Position numbers and translations under genes: made by a program. The notes below the pieces were generated by a model. It saw only the letters and a program-made list of their open reading frames with translations, was not told the origin of the DNA and made no database searches. DNA of 64,000 nt from Methanolobus sp. Lineage in GTDB: Archaea > Halobacteriota > Methanosarcinia > Methanosarcinales > Methanosarcinaceae. The first letter of the stretch is position 1, and each line of letters begins with the position of its first letter. Below are positions 46,269 to 46,740 of this stretch, piece after piece. The stretch spans positions 73,097 to 137,096 of the forward strand of contig NZ_JADQBY010000002.1 of NCBI RefSeq assembly GCF_016278385.1, in the 5' to 3' direction.

Positions 46269-46318
46269 ACCTAATCCTCGATACCTTTTTAAGAGATTAA
46301 GACCTTCAAATCCAATGT

Positions 46319-46432
46319 GCTGAGGTGGCAGAGCGGACTAATCCGTCGGCAAATGCCTCGGAGTCCAAACGCGACCGGCTCGAGACCGGTTTCTCCGGAA
46401 GGAGTGCTTGGGTTCGAATCCCAACCTCGGCG
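46319..46432 (+). tRNA. tRNA-Ser (anticodon CGA) with probable 28-nt intron in the D loop
   Basis: Acceptor arms GCTGAGG (46319-46325) and CCTCGGC (46425-46431) pair, with G73 as discriminator, a serine identity element in archaea. The anticodon arm is ACCGG-CTCGAGA-CCGGT (46374-46390), anticodon CGA. The type II variable arm is CTCCGGAAGGAG, and the T arm is TTGGG-TTCGAAT-CCCAA. The gene is 114 nt, about 28 too long, all between D and anticodon arms. A 4-bp helix GGAC/GTCC followed by bulge TAA and helix TCCG/CGGA, with AAA after GTCC, fits a relaxed splicing motif. Removing about 46341-46368 leaves 86 nt and a normal D arm with one A-C mismatch. No CCA is encoded; a T-run follows. Confidence 0.82.
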
Positions 46433-46740
46433 TCTTTTTTATAGTTGTATGAAATAAATATATTAACCGCATACTAAGTTCCCATAGTTATTAATAGAAT
46501 ATCATATAAAGAGAAATAAGAATCAAGTACATGGTGGATTCACCTAAATAATTTACATTCATGTCTAAAAGCGCAACTAACTGTTGGTTGGGACAACATA
46601 ATACAAGCGCTTAATATTAGTACTCATTTTCTGTGCTGTGATTTCAGCCTTCATCAATCAAAAATGGTGAAAAAGGAAGCTGAACGCTCATTACCACCCG
46701 AATAGATTAATATAATAAGGAATTTGTGAGTTAATGGAAA
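46433..46740 (+). other. Intergenic region before the PAS kinase
   Basis: 308 bp. A T-run after the tRNA is its terminator. A TATA-like ATCATATAAAG lies near 46500. AAGCGC (46569-46574) and GCGCTT (46607-46612) are inverted around a smaller hairpin. No ORF is supported. Confidence 0.4.

Follow-up and report, generated by a model that had tools for sequence, protein, structure and literature searches.

Architecture of the tRNA-Ser(CGA) locus

The 64,000-nucleotide stretch of Methanolobus DNA analysed here (the window) carries on its plus strand a tRNA-Ser(CGA) gene in which the acceptor, anticodon, variable and T arms are intact and the D loop contains 28 extra bases. All coordinates that an initial annotation of this DNA had given for the arms, helices, bulges and anticodon hold on checking against the sequence, and the locus is laid out as follows.

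46279..46293, plus strand: archaeal BRE/TATA-like promoter CGATACCTTTTTAAG, 26-40 nt upstream of the tRNA, seen as conserved sequence
46319..46432, plus strand: tRNA-Ser(CGA) gene including the intron, 114 nt, from sequence and orthologues in 65 of 112 family genomes
46319-46325/46425-46431, plus strand: acceptor strands
46319..46340, plus strand: exon 1, 22 nt, tRNA positions 1-21, matching intronless orthologues exactly apart from the acceptor
46341..46368, plus strand: predicted intron, 28 nt, in the D loop at position 21/22, missing exactly there in intronless orthologues
46369..46432, plus strand: exon 2, 64 nt, with the anticodon CGA (46381-46383), variable arm and T arm
46435..46440, plus strand: T run 3′ of the gene, a likely terminator judged from sequence only

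Upstream of the gene in most Methanolobus relatives, CGATACC is followed by TATATAA or TTTTTAAG at similar spacing. When 46341-46368 is excised, the remaining 86-nt tRNA-Ser(CGA) is placed correctly by ARAGORN; in the unspliced gene the program chooses a false acceptor at 46344 and misplaces its call to 46344-46434. An Rfam scan of the window did not call tRNA-Ser(CGA), its sole match being a spurious plastid 3′ UTR, and the gene illustrates why tRNA finders can put tRNA-Ser(CGA) in the wrong place. The exact cut position had been described as ambiguous with no effect on the product, and indeed the neighbouring placements, 46340-46367 and 46342-46369, are equivalent to 46341-46368. A group I or II intron was ruled out by the 28-nt size and by the motif described below.

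A second intact tRNA-Ser(CGA) gene, which the initial annotation had named as evidence against its reading, was not found by tRNA searches of the 2.88-Mb Methanolobus genome, for which the tRNA list comprises 37 Rfam matches obtained by searching and is incomplete. The remaining serine tRNAs found have anticodons GCT, TGA and GGA. Elsewhere, G000:C14:3327-3399 (L018) holds a second, unusual tRNA-Cys(GCA) (TGCCGAGGTGACAGAGTGGCTAATGTG...) beside the ordinary copy in L027.

The bulge-helix motif

The insert and the adjoining D-loop bases can be folded into the following elements.

46335..46338, plus strand: exonic strand GGAC (G18, G19, A20, C20a) of the central 4-bp helix, pairing with 46363-46366
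46339..46341, plus strand: 5′ bulge TAA, predicted cut after 46340, 3 nt in 63 of 63 orthologues
46342..46362, plus strand: intronic hairpin, TCCG/CGGA (46342-46345/46359-46362) then GGC/GCC (46348-46350/46355-46357), supported by covariation and pair probabilities
46363..46366, plus strand: intronic strand GTCC of the central helix, supported by pairing in relatives and a constrained fold
46367..46369, plus strand: 3′ bulge AAA, predicted cut after 46368, AAA, ATA or TAA in 63 of 63 orthologues

Left unconstrained, the precursor as a whole folds into a minimum-energy cloverleaf that is wrong. In a fold constrained to keep the four intact arms, pair probabilities within the motif are 0.90-0.96, falling to 0.60 for the outermost inner pair. 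Shuffling of the 28-nt insert produced an equivalent core (a 4-bp and an at least 3-bp helix with the same 3-nt bulges) in 67 of 200,000 cases. The central 4-bp helix is flanked by two 3-nt bulges, the arrangement by which archaeal BHB-type introns are recognised, and the intronic helix h′ closing the 5′ bulge is present, with at least 3 bp that covary. In the strict hBHBh′ motif an exonic helix h of at least two Watson-Crick pairs also closes the 3′ 3-nt bulge (PMC7714728). Here C46334 (C16) lies opposite C46370 (C23), so that the exonic helix is absent and the 3′ bulge at 46367-46369 has no adjoining exonic helix to close it; possible alternatives are C46334-G46371 and G46333-C46372 over a 4-nt bulge, or a 2-bp D stem over an internal loop. 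Since helix h is missing we class the motif as relaxed, or HBh′-like, which agrees with the relaxed bulge-helix motif originally proposed, its 3-4-3 core being present. In archaeal splicing the cut usually falls after the second base of each bulge, and by this rule the product would have GGACTA joined to ACGCG.

Orthologues with and without the intron

In a first search, a single copy of the gene was found in all 25 genomes of the genus, always with an insert in the same position and with few exon changes. Across the family, DNA matches were obtained in 67 of 112 genomes, or 65 after subtraction of two tRNA-Leu genes (the matches in G113 and G114, which resembled Methanosarcina orthologues and were dropped on the evidence of their anticodon loops). 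Every one of the 63 intron-bearing orthologues that we read, drawn from three families of Methanosarcinales, gives an 86-nt product after removal of an intron of 17-38 nt, and in every one a 3-nt bulge, GGAC/GTCC or GGAC/GTCT, a further 3-nt bulge and an inner helix are found. Named carriers are Methanolobus, Methanococcoides, Methanohalophilus, Methanohalobium, Methanosalsum and Methanomethylovorans, together with ANME-2 and ANME-3 genomes, Argoarchaeum and GoM-Arc1. Relatives of the same length with a different fold had been put forward as a further way in which the reading could fail; what the relatives have is the same fold at variable length.

The central helix is paired in all 40 distinct sequences, other groups included. 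Four inner pairs covary: shuffling predicts 5.2 double-change cells and 20 were counted, the five bases at either end of each inner helix having first been joined by hand. The inner-helix covariation score is 0.254 versus 0.156, and none of 500 shuffles scored as high; related sequences can beat shuffles by descent alone, yet slid controls, which retain that relatedness, collapse.

Two observations concern individual carriers. Loci of the GoM-Arc1/Argoarchaeum group (L056, L058, L059, L060) have very short introns, of 17 and 23 nt, with a 3-bp inner helix. At L215 (MZXQ01000039.1, ANME-2 cluster archaeon HR1, ~1-258) a gene carrying the D-loop intron is interrupted within its T arm, where CACTTGG is followed by TCGAAAATCGGCC..., perhaps owing to an element inserted into the gene or to an assembly join.

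Families f3 and f5 of Methanosarcinales have the same gene at 85-86 nt with no insert. In the 30 f3/f5 loci read, the D arm and junction are GCAGAGCGGACTAACGCG, which is letter for letter the predicted spliced sequence (GGACTA-ACGCG). The intron reading of the initial annotation, with its borders and 86-nt product, holds up. The A12-C23 mismatch that it had remarked on in the D arm is real and is common to the intronless orthologues, and therefore does not point to a misplaced splice; in ANME-2 and Methanomethylovorans genes an A-U pair is restored by T23.

Comparison within the Methanosarcinaceae, suggested as a check, is unusable for Methanosarcina-like genomes, in which the gene is a different one, closer to tRNA-Ser(GGA). 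The tRNA-Ser(CGA) of genomes in g23 (inferred to be Methanosarcina) and g15 is intronless, and its best identity is 0.71-0.74 to tRNA-Ser(GGA) versus 0.64-0.67 to the Methanolobus gene. Such genes, seen in Methanosarcina-like loci L148, L149, L153, L163 and L165, are likely to have arisen by an anticodon switch or gene replacement, and on account of them the family's best studied genus does not display the D-loop intron. Other families of the phylum include intronless forms of tRNA-Ser(CGA), and in family f17 (L288) the gene has a 37/38 intron.

Wider distribution and history of the intron

The D-loop intron was found in 14 of 14 genomes searched from f6, a Methanotrichaceae-like family of the same class, three of which were scored from an identical match span and score; it is 33-40 nt long where measured, and 32-34 nt in two Methanothrix-named records. 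In the f6 tRNA-Ser(CGA) the T loop is interrupted as well, by an insert at 59/60 for which the motif is strict or nearly strict: the T stem GGG/CCC as exonic helix, a bulge AAT, TTCA/TGAA, a bulge AAA and TGG/CCA, with variants in which GGAA replaces TGAA (one mismatch) and AAT or AAG replaces the bulge AAA. Removal of this insert (30-32 nt) leaves TTCAAAT in 10 of 10 genes fitted. The T-loop intron loci are L251-L263, L341, L343, L344, L175 and L224, from f6 and Methanothrix-named records, and the D-loop and T-loop introns together make two noncanonical introns within one euryarchaeal tRNA gene.

Outside the class, L286 (family f32) has a D-loop intron of 44 nt, and five f7 genomes (loci L328, L348, L349, L350 and L360) have D-loop introns of 16-17 nt as well as a variable-arm insert of ~33 nt, which is probably a further intron. 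The f7 serine TGA and GGA tRNAs (L300, L329) look interrupted near 37/38.

As judged by sequence comparison, the D-loop intron is conserved across most of this methanogen class. D-loop introns had been regarded in the initial annotation as mainly crenarchaeal, a view that does not hold for tRNA-Ser(CGA), whose intron occurs in the greater part of a class comprising methanogens and their relatives. As one exact site is shared by f6 and three families of Methanosarcinales, the simplest history is that of an ancestral intron with several precise losses: we infer that the ancestor of Methanosarcinales and Methanotrichales probably already had it and that some families later lost it precisely. Repeated gain at one site would look the same at the level of sequence as an ancestral intron with losses.

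Splicing machinery and proposed splicing

A domain search of the Methanolobus genome found EndA at one locus and nowhere else; its single ORF contains the PF01974 domain twice. In a survey of 18 genomes that included Methanolobus, 15 have two domain matches in one ORF, two phylum-level genomes have one match, the ORFs being 326-430 aa long, and the last, an incomplete genome, has none. The closest solved structures to Methanolobus EndA are those of A. fulgidus α′2 enzymes, and in its domain make-up it is of the same two-domain α′2 type, for which a homodimer with a narrow substrate range would be expected. Alignment to the A. pernix catalytic subunit revealed that Methanolobus EndA has no crenarchaea-specific loop, the element that has been linked to the use of relaxed substrates: at the loop site GFYGKPLDNER is directly joined to LQLSL, and in the alignment of GFYGKPLDNERLQLSL with A. 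pernix the loop is a gap. No insertion is present at this site in the f6 and g23 enzymes that were checked. A gene for RtcB is present in the genome. In Methanolobus EndA (L076:1228-2337) the N-terminal half retains a FRVYPRGGHPGKT stretch opposite a gap in the A. fulgidus alignment, and the supposedly structural repeat may be less degenerate there than in A. fulgidus.

The insert is very probably a protein-spliced intron in a noncanonical position of an archaeal tRNA, with excision, cut sites and ligation as predictions. Transcription would start from the gene's own BRE/TATA promoter, to judge from its conservation. In the precursor the D-loop GGAC (G18-C20a) would pair with the intronic GTCC, as the comparison of relatives supports, forming the 4-bp helix with its 3-nt bulges and the hairpin beyond. 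The α′2 endonuclease would then cut after the second base of each bulge, freeing 46341-46368, and RtcB, whose gene is present alongside that of EndA, would ligate the exons to give an 86-nt tRNA-Ser(CGA) with a D arm identical to that of intronless relatives. With G18 and G19 occupied until the cut, the tRNA elbow cannot form beforehand, and the enzyme would therefore probably read the relaxed motif directly and not the mature tRNA body.

The insert folds stably, and could in principle persist after maturation, the tRNA then having an enlarged D arm with a long additional hairpin. We regard this as highly unlikely, since the insert varies between 16 and 44 nt with a drifting inner sequence whereas the exons hardly change, two families of the order keep the same gene without it, the D-T contact requires G18 and G19, which the insert-bearing form holds paired, and the conserved parts are exactly the core read by a splicing endonuclease. 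That the gene is a degenerate copy or pseudogene, with UCG codons read by tRNA-Ser(UGA), is more improbable still: the genome does have a tRNA-Ser(TGA) that could wobble to UCG, but no arm is damaged, the promoter is conserved, and each of the 25 genomes of the genus has retained the gene with little change in its exons.

Cleavage of the intron by something other than a lone α′2 EndA, or by EndA with a helper protein, is a slightly less remote prospect, although we still consider it quite unlikely. It would accommodate an EndA lacking the crenarchaeal loop and a motif that is not a strict BHB, given that α′2 enzymes are reported to be narrow (PMC6379350, PMC12397907). Against it, the genome search turned up a single EndA locus, the motif has its complete 3-4-3 core, and the A. 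fulgidus enzyme can take a bulge-helix-loop intron out of full-length pre-tRNA (PMC6379350). Splicing by the lone α′2 enzyme remains our preferred reading of the Methanolobus intron. With G18 and G19 occupied, the known escape route that a full-length tRNA body offers α′2 enzymes looks closed.

Comparison with known systems

Enzymes of the α′2 type are described as limited to strict or canonical BHB motifs (PMC6379350, PMC4033280, PMC12397907; for A. fulgidus, PMC12397907). Reviews place euryarchaeal introns at 37/38, with Korarchaeum as the only α2 archaeon with noncanonical introns (PMC4033280, PMC4090602, PMC6379350). They also associate tRNA introns at noncanonical positions with endonucleases of broad range and regard such introns as having been added late (PMC4033280, PMC4090602, PMC6379350, PMC12397907). 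The Methanolobus intron, by contrast, looks old, lineage-wide and relaxed in motif, and is paired with a single loop-less α′2 enzyme. We consider it somewhat more likely than not that the relaxed D-loop intron, together with the T-loop intron of Methanotrichaceae, has been kept since the common ancestor of the class and is spliced by an α′2 endonuclease with no known specificity loop. If so, the rule confining α′2 enzymes to strict BHB introns at 37/38 would be wrong for this lineage, as would the view of noncanonical introns as recent and following a broadening of the enzyme.

Using tRNAscan-SE 2.0, 673 noncanonical introns were reported in 217 archaeal genomes (PMC8450103), and some of these are possibly D-loop introns of tRNA-Ser(CGA). 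Some of these tRNA-Ser(CGA) genes may already be listed in GtRNAdb. In the literature searched, a D-loop intron of tRNA-Ser(CGA) was not described.

Canonical 37/38 hBHBh′ introns of the euryarchaeal kind, as in tRNA-Met and tRNA-Tyr of the same genome, share with the D-loop intron the presumed enzyme, the 3-nt/4-bp/3-nt core and a similar length, whereas the D-loop intron is at another position and has no exonic helix h beside its 3′ bulge. The D-arm introns of Crenarchaeota/Thermoproteales (at 20/21, 22/23, 25/26 and others; PMC4090602) are likewise short and of the bulge-helix kind, and their removal restores the cloverleaf. In those organisms, however, such introns are numerous and the endonucleases are (αβ)2 enzymes that possess the crenarchaeal loop, in contrast to the lone loop-less α′2 enzyme of Methanolobus and its one lineage-wide conserved intron at 21/22. 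Korarchaeum cryptofilum combines noncanonical introns with a homodimeric (α2) endonuclease (PMC4033280), but enzymes of the Korarchaeum type reportedly have the specific loop too, and the Methanolobus, f6 and g23 enzymes have no insertion there. This kind of intron is already known; what the Methanolobus gene brings is a conflict with the published enzyme-substrate rule, which thereby becomes testable.
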